The notes beneath the pieces are model-generated. The model was not told the DNA's origin and searched no databases. It worked only from the letters and a program-made list of their open reading frames with translations. The translations under genes and the position numbers were made by a program. A stretch of 20,497 bases of DNA from a virus: positions 1-20,497 of IMG/VR virus record IMGVR_UViG_3300026124_000014; one strand, written 5' to 3'. Below are positions 5,818-20,497 of the stretch, piece by piece (positions within the stretch are counted from its first letter, which is position 1; each line of letters opens with the position of its first letter).

Positions 5818-6036
5818 ATGGAATTCATTAACGAGGAAGTCCTCGTCGGCATTCTTCTGGCCTTGCTCGGTACTAAAGCTGCTGCCATGGCCATCGTGAA
5901 CACGACGGACACCCCCAAGGACGACAATATCGCCGGAAAGGTCTACAAGGTCGTCGAGGTTATCGCCGGTATCGTCGCTCCTGAGCGGGCGAAGCAGTTT
6001 GCCGGTGAACTGGACAAGGTGAAAGAAGACAAGTGA
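5818..6036 (+). CDS. Small membrane protein, holin candidate
   Basis: A 72-residue protein with a hydrophobic N-terminal segment (VLVGILLALLGTKAAAMAIV, about residues 8-27), a short polar turn, a second moderately hydrophobic stretch (VYKVVEVIAGIVAP, about 42-55) and a charged tail ending in KEDK. This hydrophobic-charged layout, and its position directly before a spanin pair, suggest a holin that would permeabilise the inner membrane to start lysis. The ATG has a strong AGGAGG site. Its stop overlaps the GTG start of the next gene (GTGA). No endolysin is in the window. A minor structural role is the alternative. Confidence 0.5.
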   Translation: MEFINEEVLVGILLALLGTKAAAMAIVNTTDTPKDDNIAGKVYKVVEVIAGIVAPERAKQFAGELDKVKEDK

Positions 6037-6266
6037 GCTTCCTGAAGACCTTTCTCGCTCAGGCTATAGGCCCAATCGCCAACATCTTGTTCAAGATCTG
6101 GAATCGAAGCCAAGCCAAGCAGGAGGGCAAAGATGAAGCCTATGCCGAGCAGAACGAACAGCAGCTTCGGGACTCCCGTGAAGAAAAGGAAATTGGGGAG
6201 CGCATTCGCCGGGCTGATGATGATCAGCTTAATCGCTGGATGCGCCACCCAGACGAACGTCAGTGA
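6033..6266 (+). CDS. Rz: Putative inner-membrane spanin (Rz-like)
   Basis: A 77-residue protein with a hydrophobic N-terminal segment (FLAQAIGPIANILFKIW, about residues 7-23) followed by a highly charged region rich in Glu, Arg, Gln and Asp that should form a helix or coiled coil. That is the plan of an i-spanin: anchored in the inner membrane, with a periplasmic coiled coil that binds the o-spanin to fuse inner and outer membranes in the last step of lysis. The GTG start at 6033 overlaps the preceding stop, so translation is probably coupled. The Rz1 gene starts inside it in another frame, the classic nested arrangement. Confidence 0.65.
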   Translation: MSFLKTFLAQAIGPIANILFKIWNRSQAKQEGKDEAYAEQNEQQLRDSREEKEIGERIRRADDDQLNRWMRHPDERQ

Positions 6267-6399
6267 GTCCTGCCCAGTATGGGTCGAGGATAATACGTTC
6301 TATCCCTCCGAGGAGGTCATCTCGGTTATGGATCGGGGAGAAAGAGAACAAGTCGCCCAGATCAATCAAGAAATCGAGACCTTCTGTAATACCGAATAA
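6133..6399 (+). CDS. Rz1: Putative outer-membrane lipoprotein spanin (Rz1-like)
   Basis: An 88-residue protein with a basic n-region (KKRK, residues 17-20), a hydrophobic core and a clear lipobox LIAGC with the lipidated Cys at 37, leaving a mature lipoprotein of about 52 residues. It begins inside Rz in the +1 frame and runs 133 bases past it. AGGAGG at 6121-6126, six bases before ATG 6133, fixes the start even though it lies inside Rz coding sequence. Two further Cys residues (43 and 85) could form a disulphide; o-spanins of other phages are often disulphide-linked. Unlike lambda Rz1 it is not Pro-rich. Confidence 0.75.
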   Translation: MKPMPSRTNSSFGTPVKKRKLGSAFAGLMMISLIAGCATQTNVSESCPVWVEDNTFYPSEEVISVMDRGEREQVAQINQEIETFCNTE

Positions 6400-6702: not shown

Positions 6703-6787
6703 ACAACCTTGTGCGGACAACGTGTTGAGTCTGACGGGATAGGGCAACCAATACCGTGAATCTCAAACACAATAGGGGAAACCCACA

Positions 6788-8247
6788 ATGGCAGATTATA
6801 TTCCGAGCCGCCCCGGTAATGACGGGAGCGGTGACGCTCGCGCACTTTTCCTTAAAGTCTTTTCGGGCGAAGTCCTGACCGCCTTCAACCAGAAGCAGGT
6901 CATGATGGACAAGCATTTCGTCCGTACCATCGAATCGGGCAAGTCGGCTTAACCATGAACCGGGCCGACTCTAAACACTCCGTAAAATCGGGGAAACCCT
7001 CACAATCGCCCGAGGGCAATCCCGAGCCAAGGCAGCGCAGTAAGCGCGAAGGTGTAGAGACTGGACACGGAGCGACTCTAGTAGCCTGCAAATCCTGTAG
7101 CAAACCCAAGAAGCCCACTGAGTTCTATCGCAAAGACCGCCAAGGTCGGCGCGACCGAGTATGCAAACGCTGCCGAACTATCGAGCAGCGCGAAAAGACC
7201 CTCGGGATCACAGATGAGACTTACTGGGATCTATACCATAAGCAGGCTGGACGGTGCGGCATTTGCCGACGCCGTTTGTACTCGAAACGATACAAGGTGT
7301 TTTGCGTCGATCACGACCATGACACCGGTGCCATCCGTGGCCTCCTGTGCCACAACTGCAACCGAGCAGTAGGTATGTTTCGAGACTGTAGCGCAACGAT
7401 TCAACGCGCCGCAGCATGGGTCGAAGGGACAGTCCAACCCCAGTAGTAATACTGGCACGGGAAGCAGTTCCCGGTTACCTGGAAGGCCGAGGCCAAGTAT
7501 CACACTCCCGGTGCGGAGCTTACTGGTAGCAACCAGTTCACCCACCGTGAGCGCACCATCAACATCGACCAGCTTCTGGTCGCCGACACTTTCATCCCCC
7601 GTATTGACGAGGCGATGAACCACTACGACGTTCGTTCGATCTACAGCACTCAGCTCGGCGAAGCGCTCGCCAACGAGTTCGACCGAAACGTCCACATCGT
7701 CGGTCTCAAGGCTGCCCGCGAGGCCGCTGGGACTCTGTTCCCTGAGCATCCGGGTGGCGCTCAGAAGATCAACGCGGACTACGGCACGGTCGGCGAGACC
7801 CTTGCCGACGGGATGTTTGAAGCCGCTCAGGTTCTCGATGAGAAGGATGTCCCTGAGGGCGACCGCTACATGACCGTCCGTCCGGCTCAGTATTACCTGA
7901 TGGCGCAGACCACCAAGGTGCTGAACCGCGACTGGGGTGGCCGTGGCTCCTATGCCGACGGTGAAGTCCTGAACGTCGCTGGGATCAACATCGTTAAGTC
8001 GAACAACCTCCCGAACACCAACATCACCACGAACCCGTCGGGAGCGGAGAACGACTACACGGGCGACTTCAGCAACACGGTTGGTCTGGTGCATCACCGT
8101 ACCGCCATGGGGACTGTAAAGCTCCTTGATCTGGCGATGGAGAACGAGTGGCAGATCGCCCGCCAGGGCTACCTGATGCTCGCCAAGTTCGCCATGGGTC
8201 ATGACTATCTGCGTCCTGAGGCGGCGGTTGAGCTGGCCACTGCGTAA
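6788..8247 (+). CDS. Major capsid protein, T7 gp10-like, interrupted by a group I intron
   Basis: Exon 1 is 6788-6949 and exon 2 is 7465-8247; joined they encode 314 residues (T7 gp10A has 344). Exon 1 carries ALFLKVFSGEVLTAFNQKQV and ends in SGKSA. Exon 2 starts QFPV and continues with DEAMNHYDVRS, HRTAMGTVKLLDLAME and AMGHDYLRPEAA, all close to T7 gp10. T7 has SGKSAQFPV uninterrupted, so the inferred splice restores the ancestral protein exactly, in frame. Without splicing, translation stops at TAA 6950-6952 after 54 residues. The ATG follows AGGGGAAACCCACA. No second in-frame capsid form was identified. Two terminator hairpins follow, as the single T-phi terminator follows T7 gene 10. Confidence 0.93.
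6950..7464 (+). ncRNA. Group I self-splicing intron in the capsid gene
   Basis: Helices read directly: P1, exon GTCGGCT (6943-6949) with GGCCGAC (6963-6969), ending in the splice-site U-G pair. P3, CTCCGT (6978-6983) with ACGGAG (7067-7072). P4, TCGGG (6988-6992) with CCCGA (7021-7025). P5, CCCTC (6997-7001) with GAGGG (7012-7016). P6, GCGC (7035-7038) with GCGC (7044-7047). P7, 7057-7063 (GAGACTG, bulged A) with 7430-7435 (CAGTCC). P8, CGACTC (7073-7078) with GGGTCG (7418-7423). P9, CCAGTA/TACTGG with a GTAA loop (7440-7455). P10, GAACCG (6957-6962) with exon CAGTTC, five of six pairs. The intron ends in the expected G (7464). The conserved AATCCCGAGCC and TAGAGACT core strings are present. 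Confidence 0.92.
6955..7446 (+). CDS. Intron-encoded HNH homing endonuclease, endonuclease VII-like
   Basis: A 163-residue protein. Residues 1-40 are low-complexity and basic, because the same bases form the ribozyme core. A zinc site follows (C45, C48, C70, C73), then an HNH/endonuclease VII motif: C101-x2-C104, CVDHDH (117-122), RGLLCHNC with C132/C135, and NRAVG. It probably cuts intronless capsid alleles and promotes intron homing. The ATG at 6955 is two bases after the TAA that ends capsid exon 1, with no clear Shine-Dalgarno of its own, so coupled re-initiation on unspliced RNA is likely. The stop lies in P9. The catalytic body fills the P8 loop. Activity is not shown by sequence alone. 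Confidence 0.9.
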   Translation: MNRADSKHSVKSGKPSQSPEGNPEPRQRSKREGVETGHGATLVACKSCSKPKKPTEFYRKDRQGRRDRVCKRCRTIEQREKTLGITDETYWDLYHKQAGRCGICRRRLYSKRYKVFCVDHDHDTGAIRGLLCHNCNRAVGMFRDCSATIQRAAAWVEGTVQPQ

Positions 8248-8275
8248 AGCGGCTGAACCACAACTTGCTACCTAA

Positions 8276-8309
8276 AGGGGTGGCCCCACCGGGGCTGCCC
8301 CTATTTTTT
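8276..8309 (+). terminator. Rho-independent terminator after the capsid gene, copy 1
   Basis: A 12-bp stem, AGGGGTGGCCCC (8276-8287) with GGGGCTGCCCCT (8291-8302), has two G-U pairs, an ACC loop and a following ATTTTTT. It corresponds in position to T7 T-phi after gene 10, which attenuates late transcription so that downstream tail genes are made in smaller amounts than capsid. Confidence 0.9.
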
Positions 8310-8325
8310 GTTAGGAGCCACCAAT

Positions 8326-8370
8326 GATTACCTGCGTCCTGAGGCGGCGGTTGAGCTGGCCACTGCGTAA
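8326..8370 (+). pseudogene. Orphan duplicate of the last 14 capsid codons
   Basis: In the duplicated segment the peptide DYLRPEAAVELATA plus stop is repeated in the same phase as the capsid gene but with no upstream body. The first two codons differ synonymously (gat tac against gac tat). It cannot be reached by read-through, because TAA and TGA codons lie between the copies. Confidence 0.7.
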
Positions 8371-8398
8371 AGCGGCTGAACCACAACTTGCTACCTAA

Positions 8399-8432
8399 AG
8401 GGGTGGCCCCACCGGGGCTGCCCCTATTTTTT
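8399..8432 (+). terminator. Rho-independent terminator, copy 2
   Basis: This is an exact copy of the 8276-8309 hairpin and T-run, shifted by 123 bases. It ends 13 bases before the gp11-like start. Two terminators in series would lower read-through into the tail genes further than one. Confidence 0.9.
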
Positions 8433-8445
8433 GTTAGGAGCCACC

Positions 8446-9051
8446 ATGAGTGTAAACCGAACAACTGAACTTGAGGCTATCAACACACTGCTCGAAACCA
8501 TCGGGCTTTCTCCAATCAACACCCTGACTGGAAAGAAAACAGCAGACATCATCCGAGCCGAAAGCGTCCTCAATGAGGTAAACCGAGAAGTCCAGACCAT
8601 GGGGTGGTTCTTCAATAGGGAGAGTAAATTCACTTTGGCCCGAGACCGAAAGAACGAGATTCCTGTGCCCGGAAATGTGGTGCGAATTGACTACGACCGG
8701 TCTTCATTCAAAGACATCGAGCCGGTCATTCGAGGCACACGCCTCTATGACAAGAAGAACCACACCTACAAGTTCGACGAAAGTGTCGAGCTGTCCGTTG
8801 TGATCGCGCTTCCTTTTGAAGAGCTTCCCGAAGCTGCCCGTAGGTATATTACGATCCGAGCCGCCCGTATGTACGGCGACCGAATGGTCGGGTCAGAGAG
8901 CTTGAATGCTTTCACCCGTAACGATGAGAACCGAGCTTGGATCAGCCTTAGGGAGTGGGAAGGCGACGTAGGCGACTATAGTATTTTCGACGCTCCAGGA
9001 ATGGCCGAGACGCACCTCCGGGGGCGGCATGTGCCAAGGGGAAATTACTAA
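8446..9051 (+). CDS. Tail tubular protein A, T7 gp11-like
   Basis: A 201-residue protein (T7 gp11 is 196) that would form the dodecameric adaptor ring between portal and nozzle. The start MSVNRTTELEAINTLLETIG is typical of the family (an N-terminal helix that contacts the portal), as are SVLNEVNREVQTMGWFFN in the middle and EELPEAARRYITIRAARMY toward the C-terminus. I chose ATG 8446 because AGGAG at 8436-8440 precedes it; an upstream in-frame ATG at 8431 would start in the terminator T-run and is unlikely. Its stop overlaps the next start (TAATG), implying translational coupling with gp12. Confidence 0.93.
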   Translation: MSVNRTTELEAINTLLETIGLSPINTLTGKKTADIIRAESVLNEVNREVQTMGWFFNRESKFTLARDRKNEIPVPGNVVRIDYDRSSFKDIEPVIRGTRLYDKKNHTYKFDESVELSVVIALPFEELPEAARRYITIRAARMYGDRMVGSESLNAFTRNDENRAWISLREWEGDVGDYSIFDAPGMAETHLRGRHVPRGNY

Positions 9052-18194: not shown

Positions 18195-20497
18195 ATGGCA
18201 GACAGTTTTATCCGGTACACCGGAGACGGCTCTACGTCTGAATTCTCGGTGCCGTTCGACTACATCAGCAAAGGCCATGTACGGCTGTTCGTCGACGGCG
18301 TTGATACCGACTTCGAGTGGGTAAACGCCGGTAGCATCTCTCCGGTAACCGTTCCCGCATCCGGCAGCGATGTGATCGTTCAGCGTGAAACTCCCAAGTC
18401 CCCTCTGGTCGACTTCTCCAGCGGCGCTGTAATCAACGAGTCCGAGCTTGACCTGCTCACTCGGCAGAACGTCTATATCTCCGAGGAGACCCGAGACCGG
18501 TCTCTGATCATCGATGAAGACGGGACGGTGGACGCCAAGTCCTCGCGGCTCACGAATGTCGCTGATCCGGTCGATCCTCAGGACATCGCCACGCGAAACT
18601 GGGCCGAGAACGAGACCACCAGCTTCATTGTCGCTGCCGAGGCTGAAGCTGATGCGGCTTCTCAGAGTGCTACTGACGCCGACCTGAGTGCTGCTGACGC
18701 CCAAGCCAGCGAAGACGCAGCTGCGGTCAGTGAGACCAATGCTGCCTCAAGTGAATCAGCGGCGGCCACTAGCGAGGCCAATGCCAAGACGAGTGAGAAC
18801 GCAGCGGCGGCTAGTGAATCAGCAGCGGCCACCAGTGAGTCTAATGCGGCCTCAAGCGAGAATGCGGCTGCTTCAAGCGAAACCGCTGCGGCCAATAGCG
18901 CCTCAGCAGCTCTCTCCAGCGAGAACGCGGCTGCCTCAAGTGAGTCGGCAGCGGCTACCAGTGAGTCCAATGCGGCTGACAGCGAGACGGCTGCGTCTAA
19001 CAGCGCTTCGGCAGCGGCTACGAGTGAGTCGAATGCAGCCACAAGCGAGTCGAACGCAGCCGCGAGTGAATCGGCGGCAGCTACAAGCGAGTCCAACGCG
19101 GCTTCTAGTGAGTCTTTGGCAAACCAGTGGGCCGAGGAAAGCGAAGACGTAGAAGTGACGGCTGGGTCTTATTCAGCCAAGCACCACGCTTTCAAGGCTT
19201 TCGCCTCCGAGAACGCAGCCTCGACCAGCGAGTCAAATGCAGCTTCGTCGGCTTCTGCTGCGTCAGATAACGCATCAGCAGCAGCGACCAGCGAGTCTAA
19301 TGCGGCCTCGAGTGAAACTGCAGCCGCTAACAGTGCTTCAGAGGCTTCGACGAGTGCATCGAATGCAGCCGCGAGTGAGTTAGCGGCCTCTGCTAGTGAA
19401 TCTAACGCGGCTTCGAGCGAGTCCAATGCAGCCGCGAGTGAATCGGCGGCAGCTACAAGCGAGTCGAATGCGGCTTCGAGCGAGTCCCTGGCGAACCAGT
19501 GGGCTGAAGAGAACGAAGATGTCGAGGTGACTACTGGCGCTTATTCGGCCAAGCATCATTCTCTTAAAGCCTCTGCATCTGAAAGTGCGGCTTCGACGAG
19601 CGAGTCGAATGCAGCCTCAAGTGCGACTGATGCGGCCAATAGCGCTTCAGCGGCCTCAACCAGTGAGACCAATGCCGCTTCGAGCGAAACTGCAGCCGCC
19701 AATAGTGCCTCAGCGGCTTCGACAAGCGAGTCGAATGCGGCCACCAGTGAGTCAAATGCTGCTGATAGCGCCTCAGCGGCCTCGACCAGCGAGTCCAACG
19801 CGGCTACGAGCGAGACCAACGCTGCCGCCAGTGAGTCCTTGGCGAACGACTGGGCCGAGGAAGCTGAGGATGTCGAGGTAGAAACCGGTTCCTATTCCGC
19901 AAAGCACCATGCCAACAAGGCATCCGCTTCGGCTAGTGCGGCGTCCACTTCGGAATCCAATGCGGCCTCTAGTGCCACTGACGCAGCCAACAGCGCCTCG
20001 GCTGCATCAACCAGCGAGTCCAACGCGGCTACTAGCGAATCAAATGCCGCTACCAGCGAGACCAACGCAGCCTCAAGCGAGAGTGCGGCAGCCACCAGCG
20101 AGTCAAATGCGGCAGATAGCGCTTCCTCAGCTTCAACGAGTGAATCTAATGCGGCCTCAAGTGAGTCGAAAGCTGCGCTCTGGGCCGAGGAAGACGAGAA
20201 TGTTGAGGTTGAGACTGGAGCTTACTCAGCCTACCACTGGGCAAAACAGGCTCAGAGCTATGCCACGGGCGATATCTCGCTTGATCAGATCGTCCAGAGT
20301 GGAGCGACTGATGGCCAGCAGATCGTCTGGGACGATGCAAACAGCGAGTGGATTGCTTTCTCTCTGACTGCTTCGGATGTGCCGGTCTCCGACTCTGGCG
20401 GCAATTTTACTGCTGCTAACGTCGAGTCCGCATTATCAGAAGAAGCTGACGCTCGTCAGGCTCATGAGAGCAACACAGCGAACCCCCATTCGGTGAC
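18195..20497 (+). CDS. Tail fibre protein, T7 gp17-like N-terminus (3' end beyond window)
   Basis: At least 767 residues, open to the window end without a stop. Residues 1-145 form the virion-attachment domain of the T7 tail fibre family: FIRYTGDGSTSEFSVPFDYI, then VIVQRETPKSPLVDF, SELDLLTRQNVYISEE and DPQDIATRNWAE. From about residue 152 to 657 an Ala/Ser/Glu shaft of seven-residue repeats (type ESNAASS) is interrupted by copies of a module of type WAEExEDVEVxxGxYSAKHH. After the last copy the sequence becomes non-repetitive (about 680 onward). It ends in HESNTANPHSV, an NPH element common in distal fibre parts. The receptor-binding tip is not in the window. AGGAGG precedes the ATG by four bases. 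Confidence 0.93.
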   Translation, partial: MADSFIRYTGDGSTSEFSVPFDYISKGHVRLFVDGVDTDFEWVNAGSISPVTVPASGSDVIVQRETPKSPLVDFSSGAVINESELDLLTRQNVYISEETRDRSLIIDEDGTVDAKSSRLTNVADPVDPQDIATRNWAENETTSFIVAAEAEADAASQSATDADLSAADAQASEDAAAVSETNAASSESAAATSEANAKTSENAAAASESAAATSESNAASSENAAASSETAAANSASAALSSENAAASSESAAATSESNAADSETAASNSASAAATSESNAATSESNAAASESAAATSESNAASSESLANQWAEESEDVEVTAGSYSAKHHAFKAFASENAASTSESNAASSASAASDNASAAATSESNAASSETAAANSASEASTSASNAAASELAASASESNAASSESNAAASESAAATSESNAASSESLANQWAEENEDVEVTTGAYSAKHHSLKASASESAASTSESNAASSATDAANSASAASTSETNAASSETAAANSASAASTSESNAATSESNAADSASAASTSESNAATSETNAAASESLANDWAEEAEDVEVETGSYSAKHHANKASASASAASTSESNAASSATDAANSASAASTSESNAATSESNAATSETNAASSESAAATSESNAADSASSASTSESNAASSESKAALWAEEDENVEVETGAYSAYHWAKQAQSYATGDISLDQIVQSGATDGQQIVWDDANSEWIAFSLTASDVPVSDSGGNFTAANVESALSEEADARQAHESNTANPHSV
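18648..20165 (+). repeat. Heptad-repeat shaft of the tail fibre gene
   Basis: In the fibre frame, seven-residue units of consensus E-S-N-A-A-S/T-S occur 22 times before the first WAEE module (module 19113-19208), 13 times before the second (19485-19580), 12 before the third (19836-19931) and 11 before the fourth (starting 20166), each block ending with one extra Glu. The protein repeats are far more regular than the DNA, because synonymous codons vary between units. The longest near-identical DNA stretches are around 19050-19100 and 19420-19470. Confidence 0.93.

Follow-up and report, generated by a model that had tools for sequence, protein, structure and literature searches.

The major capsid gene of a T7-like phage is very probably interrupted by a mobile group I intron with a gene for an Endonuclease VII (EndoVII)-family homing endonuclease, and the arrangement of the sequence suggests that the intron would remove itself from the capsid mRNA, would have its nuclease made by re-initiation of translation, and would home into uninterrupted capsid genes. 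The intron was found in a 20.5-kb virus record (20,497 nucleotides; this whole stretch is referred to as the window), and the exons, the intron and the elements of the intron are all on the plus strand.

A predicted group I intron lies at the most conserved codons of the capsid gene

The window displays the T7-like gene order of portal (PF12236), scaffold, capsid and tail tube A, and the capsid gene was assigned to the T7 gp10-like major capsid genes by this gene order, by the Gp10A profile PF21703 (E=6.4e-75), and by matches to PF12236 and PF17212. The gene is present as two exons. Exon 1 (6788-6949) consists of 54 codons in an open frame that ends with GKSA, has U6949 as its last base, and matches PHROG 267 (E=1.2e-10); exon 2 (7465-8247) encodes 260 amino acids beginning with QFPV, and matches both the Gp10A-like Pfam profile given above and PHROG 267. 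Joining the exons in frame yields an uninterrupted capsid protein of 314 amino acids, in which exon 1 covers positions 23-75 of PHROG 267 and exon 2 covers positions 76-325, exactly contiguously. The initial annotation had proposed this junction, SGKSA to QFPV, and had noted that it restores the T7 gp10 sequence; T7 gp10 indeed carries the stretch SGKSAQFPV uninterrupted at the corresponding place. The joined product is a known protein, at least 80% of which was matched in one place in 1336 phage records. The interrupted site is formed by the invariant GKSA codons, the most conserved codons of the T7 gp10-like capsid gene. In a T7-like phage, no late product is more abundant than the capsid protein.

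A collection of viral sequences was scanned with the capsid protein, the open reading frame (ORF) of the intron, and motifs for the core and for P1. In all, 16 distinct alleles from T7-like phages proved to carry the same intron at an identical codon position (the window, L003, L006, L023, L053, L057, L078, L095, L102, L109, L138, L213, L226, L227, L228 and L230), with intron lengths of 507-537 nt. In the window the intron occupies 515 nt (6950-7464), begins with TAA, which stops the exon 1 frame, and ends with G7464. The covariance-model search recommended by the initial annotation returned Rfam family RF00028 at 6916-7456 as the sole Rfam match in the window (E=1.1e-5), with a score of 34.9 bits that lies below the gathering score of 50; a related intron (L006) scored 51.5, over that cutoff, and the intron of L003 (79% identical), for which no Rfam match was listed at E 0.1, was placed by alignment instead.

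P1 (6943-6969) pairs exon bases 6943-6949 with guide bases 6963-6969 and places the pair U6949-G6963 at the splice site in all 16 alleles; in L138, a G-C pair of P1 has become C-G, matched by a synonymous exon change in a serine codon. The P10 guide strand (6957-6962) has bases 7465-7470 of exon 2 as its partner, and double changes were found in L006 (C-G to U-A) and L023 (G-C to A-U). Because P1 and P10 pair the intron with exon bases and covary, both splice sites are fixed. P3 (6978-6983/7067-7072; double changes at five pairs) encloses P4 (6988-6993/7020-7025; one pair), P5 (6997-7001/7012-7016; three pairs), P6 (7026-7028/7051-7053) and P6a (7035-7038/7044-7047; two pairs). The 5' strand of P7 (7057-7063) pairs with 7430-7435 around a bulged A7058; all 96 P7 cells are paired across the 16 alleles, the bulge is kept, two pairs show double changes, and in six alleles one pair is G-C in place of A-U. 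P8 (7073-7078 with 7418-7423, CGACTC/GGGTCG) was aligned by eye and left out of the pair counts, since the alleles differ by one base in its register. P9 (7440-7455) forms the hairpin CCAGTA-GTAA-TACTGG with a GUAA cap at 7446-7449, and five of its six pairs show double changes.

Pairing of the core was examined first in 12 alleles, in which 99.0% of 582 cells were paired, vs 28-42% when the partner strands were slid by 1-3 columns; double changes occurred at 17 pairs compared to a shuffled mean of 9.4, and none of 500 shuffles reached as high a count. Across all 16 alleles, 756 of 768 cells of the core, to which P1 and P10 contribute, were paired (98.4%) and 22 pairs showed double changes; this pairing greatly exceeds chance. 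Taken together, the Rfam match and the covariation identify the group I core of P3, P4, P6, P7 and P8, with P7 and P3 pseudoknotted, and the U-G pair at the 5' splice site and the terminal G7464 are likewise those of a group I intron. These data, along with the contiguous PHROG 267 coordinates, bear out the initial annotation, which had predicted such an intron in a T7-like major capsid gene and had drawn P1, P10, the splice-site U-G pair, the bulged A in P7, the GTAA-capped P9 and the terminal G where they are found here; positions 6950-7464 are predicted with confidence to be a group I intron that splits a major capsid gene of the T7 gp10 type.

It could be argued that the insert no longer splices and that the capsid works as two separately made pieces, as is reported for NrdA, split by mobE, in Aeromonas phage Aeh1. 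Genes whose two parts are separated by a nuclease gene and are not spliced are known (PMC7344957), and exon 2 contains an internal ATG at 7615. However, exon 2 has no start at its beginning, translation from 7615 would omit 50 conserved residues, and the reading phase over the junction is kept in all alleles. Furthermore, a fixed split gene of the Aeh1 NrdA type has no ribozyme between its halves, whereas a covarying ribozyme lies between the capsid exons, and the covariation of P1 and P10 ties it to exon bases, which only splicing would select. A permanently split capsid gene is therefore very unlikely.

An additional hairpin (7458-7473) joins the last intron bases with exon 2, in which CGGGAA pairs with TTCCCG around G and CAG, the splice site falling between these two. 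All six pairs are present in 14 of the 16 alleles, and none of 1000 shuffles was as well paired. The outer pair, at a silent proline position, is GC in eight alleles, CG in three, AU in two and GU in one, and an inner pair changes from G-C to A-U in L230. This hairpin and P10 compete for the same UUC; it may act as a further control through this competition, and we speculate that it presents or shields the 3' splice site. The inverted repeat was also considered as a DNA target of the nuclease, and this was rejected because an empty site lacks the repeat.

The intron encodes an EndoVII-type nuclease

The initial annotation had described the intron as compact, and this is misleading, as an ORF that it overlooked (6955-7446; 163 amino acids) takes up 492 of the 515 nt. 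This ORF starts in the P1 loop, stops in P9, and encodes an EndoVII-type (DHHRN) protein (Pfam PF02945, E=5.2e-22). Its nearest solved structures by sequence are Hpy99I (E=2.8e-17) and T4 EndoVII (E=9.5e-11), and the predicted fold also places these two nearest. The DHHRN motif has been defined as CX2-4C, DHDH, R, CX2C and N (PMC6083498), and the corresponding residues, the zinc-binding ones among them, C101, C104, D119, H120, H122, R128, C132, C135 and N136 are invariant in 16 sequences. The nuclease domain, with CxxC, DHDH, R and CxxCN, comprises residues 79-157 of 163 (7189-7425) and is encoded in the P8 loop; such a C-terminal position is the arrangement of the homing/restriction clade and not of the resolvase clade (PMC6083498).

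Substitution rates at the first, second and third codon positions were 0.31, 0.22 and 0.59 in the nuclease part, where third positions vary the most, and this is a sign of purifying selection. The part of the ORF that overlaps the ribozyme displayed rates of 0.15, 0.16 and 0.20; there, RNA pairing constrains third positions too. Among the loci of the pattern scan, the ORF family is confined to capsid introns, with the exception of one borderline match in L045. The intron is thus predicted to be a composite mobile element with a putative EndoVII-family homing endonuclease gene. A resolvase role for the ORF was also considered and was rated low on the basis of domain order and of Hpy99I as the nearest structure.

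The nuclease reading frame runs through the ribozyme core

Codons 1 to about 39 of the nuclease ORF (6955-7072) overlap P1, P3, P4, P5, P6, P6a, P7 and the 3' strand of P3. Through the core, the nuclease frame contains no stop codon in 12 alleles, compared to 38 and 22 stops in the other two frames. The distance from start codon to P7 (81-99 nt) is a multiple of three in 12 of 12 alleles, and the distance from splice site to P7 (91-106 nt) is not always so. All 16 introns open with a stop codon in the exon 1 frame (TAA or TGA), and the nuclease starts lie 1-17 nt past it; in the window, the ATG lies 2 nt past the TAA at the splice site. No Shine-Dalgarno sequence was found before the nuclease start codons, and in L138 the in-frame ATG has been lost, so that a GTG start would be needed. 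Residues 1-35 are predicted to be disordered (pLDDT about 35) and the fold begins near residue 41, hence the N-terminal tail looks like translated ribozyme. In six alleles (L053, L057, L078, L095, L109 and L213), the 3' strand of P7 (GTATAGTCC) supplies the TAG stop codon of the nuclease; where the P7 pair or the frame is different, as in the window, the ORF continues into P9.

The disorder of the first 35 residues would also be compatible with an illusory overlap, in which the true start of the nuclease lies within the P8 loop. The EndoVII ORF in the terminase intron of the Vequintavirus MaxBurger starts after P3', and overlaps of this sort have been suspected as mispredictions (PMC3073962). 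Nevertheless, seven alleles, including the window, have no ATG, GTG or TTG in frame from codon 2 to codon 70, the P1-loop codon being the sole such codon in the first 70, and in all alleles the frame is open and changes in length by multiples of three through the core. A start inside the P8 loop is accordingly improbable as a general account; it should be noted that nine of the 16 alleles do have additional in-frame ATG, GTG or TTG codons within the first 70, and an internal start may be used in these. These findings argue that the predicted overlap of the nuclease frame with the ribozyme core is real, and, since the seven alleles offer no alternative start, any ribosome that translates the nuclease would traverse the entire ribozyme.

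Capsid genes with and without the intron are interspersed in the tree

The distribution of the intron was assessed in a tree of 78 capsid sequences, a quick tree with some long branches, on which intron presence requires seven changes, at least five of them forced by well-supported branches. Sister sequences differ in intron presence (L057/L176, L213/L166 and L078/L201/L219), and the sequences that flank the intron in L078 adjoin at adjacent bases in L201, which is an exact empty site. This intermixing, together with exact empty sites, indicates that the intron is mobile or has been lost repeatedly. The exact 13-base target GTCGGCTCAGTTC is present and unoccupied in five of 67 intronless genes. 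The shorter sequence GTCGGCT is present in 11 of 12 intron-bearing capsid genes (P=5e-9), an enrichment that fits either co-conversion or a requirement for P1 pairing.

The intron might splice while its nuclease is inherited vertically or has taken on another role, such as that of a resolvase, and no longer acts in homing. EndoVII belongs to a family of Holliday-junction resolvases, nuclease and capsid identities correlate (Spearman 0.54), and repeated loss could also yield the patchy distribution, so that five state changes fall short of proving transfer. On the other hand, nuclease identity holds at 58-65% where capsid identity drops to 44-59%, sister capsid genes differ in the presence of the intron, the ORF family was found at this capsid site only among the loci scanned, and the nuclease domain is nearest to Hpy99I and lies at the C-terminus, as in the homing/restriction clade (PMC6083498). 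A nuclease without homing activity is thus improbable, and a mobile intron remains the favored reading.

The window is a metagenome record, and a 123-bp tandem duplication nearby is absent from two near-identical contigs, which would be in keeping with an assembly or chimera artefact; however, the intron is present unchanged in two further contigs and 15 other alleles occupy the same codon, making an artefactual origin exceedingly unlikely. When the window region and related introns were compared by BLASTN with 50,697 phage records, no isolate with this intron was found; the core was shared only by distant DNA polymerase introns. The P1 pattern did not occur in contigs of bacterial and archaeal genomes.

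Proposed expression and mobility of the intron

From these features we infer that the ribozyme would excise itself from the late mRNA by two transesterifications, with the 5' site (U6949/U6950) held by P1 and the 3' site after G7464 held by P10, to leave an intact capsid mRNA. On unspliced mRNA, ribosomes translating exon 1 would terminate at the TAA formed by intron bases 1-3, and some would re-initiate within the P1 loop, at the ATG that follows after two bases, to produce the nuclease. Translation of the nuclease would run from P1 to P9 and prevent splicing of that RNA, and the nuclease would cut the uninterrupted site between GKSA and QF in co-infecting intronless phages, whereupon repair would copy the intron in. 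Each transcript probably either splices and gives capsid or yields nuclease, not both. There is an even chance that capsid translation itself is the switch, with the stop at the splice site and re-initiation in the P1 loop deciding, transcript by transcript, between ribozyme folding and read-through. It is established that exon translation affects the splicing of phage introns, and phage introns often have stop codons just inside the 5' splice site (review, PMC3073962).

Capsid yield would depend on splicing efficiency, as the initial annotation had stated, because unspliced RNA stops at the first codon of the intron. If a transcript makes nuclease instead of capsid, the cost would be direct, given the abundance of the capsid protein; that the intron has persisted in the capsid gene of at least 16 lineages suggests that it splices efficiently and homes strongly. 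The 16 alleles, with their empty sites and small phages, constitute a comparative set for the question, raised by the literature on core creep (PMC3073962), of how a ribozyme with a coding core would go on splicing despite heavy translation.

Relation to known introns and consequences for annotation

Introns in capsid genes, introns in T7-like phages and intron-encoded EndoVII nucleases have each been described before; new here are the capsid site, its breadth, and a reading frame that starts in the P1 loop and spans the full core. Searches of open-access literature brought up no earlier account of an intron in a gene of the T7 gp10 type. The major capsid gene of mycobacteriophage LittleE likewise contains a group I intron that harbors a homing endonuclease, and the splicing of this intron was shown by RT-PCR (PMC3706429), whereas splicing is predicted for the intron in the window. 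LittleE is a siphovirus, the single phage of its cluster with such an intron, with another capsid family and site, and its nuclease ORF is LAGLIDADG-like and on the opposite strand, unlike the EndoVII-type ORF described here. A spliced capsid intron of Tuc2009 is cited within PMC3706429.

In T7-like phages, group I introns are known from DNA polymerase genes, as in Yersinia Berlin and phiL7, and some DNA polymerase introns carry EndoVII-type ORFs (PMC6083498). Those of Escherichia phage Sekstaphage-1 and Erwinia phiEa1H resemble the capsid intron in their T7-like hosts and in the sequence of P3-P6; they differ in the interrupted gene, and the Sekstaphage-1 ORF does not start until the region of P6, further downstream, leaving P1 to P5 untranslated. 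The terminase intron of Escherichia phage MaxBurger (MZ501093) also belongs to group I and has an EndoVII-type ORF within its P8 loop, and its nuclease is 43% identical to that of the capsid intron; however, it interrupts a different gene and its 5' core is untranslated. The capsid-intron nuclease shares all defining residues and the C-terminal nuclease domain with F-CphI and the DHHRN family (PMC6083498), yet F-CphI is encoded outside the intron that it helps (collaborative homing), whereas the capsid-intron nuclease is encoded inside its own intron. As in core creep, the homing ORF contributes to the catalytic helices, but the overlaps tabulated in PMC3073962 measure at most 81 nt, compared to about 120 nt (5') and about 30 nt (3') here.

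A deep-sea T7-like phage, Chosvirus KM23C739 (KT997847.1; L018), carries two ORF-less group I introns elsewhere in its capsid gene (1130-1312 and about 1829-2020; Rfam scores of 78 and 77 bits). Removal of the first restores the reading frame, and the record annotates the interrupted gene as two capsid genes. Introns in the capsid gene break capsid-gene markers and automated gene calls, as the KT997847 record illustrates.

Other features of the window

The 123-bp tandem duplication (8201-8446; 98%) comprises the 3' end of the capsid gene, a terminator and the start of the next gene; it is single-copy in two near-identical contigs and is either recent or an assembly artefact. A 17-nt near-repeat (88%) links the capsid leader before the start codon (6771-6787) with the P4-P5 segment of the intron (6986-7002), and may be due to chance. 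Two ORFs overlapping in different frames (6033-6266 and 6133-6399), without a Pfam match, look like a nested Rz/Rz1 spanin pair, as the second has a lipoprotein signal (LIAGC). A putative tail-fibre ORF (18195-20495), open at the end of the window, contains a very long Ser/Glu/Asn/Ala repeat (SESNAAxSE).
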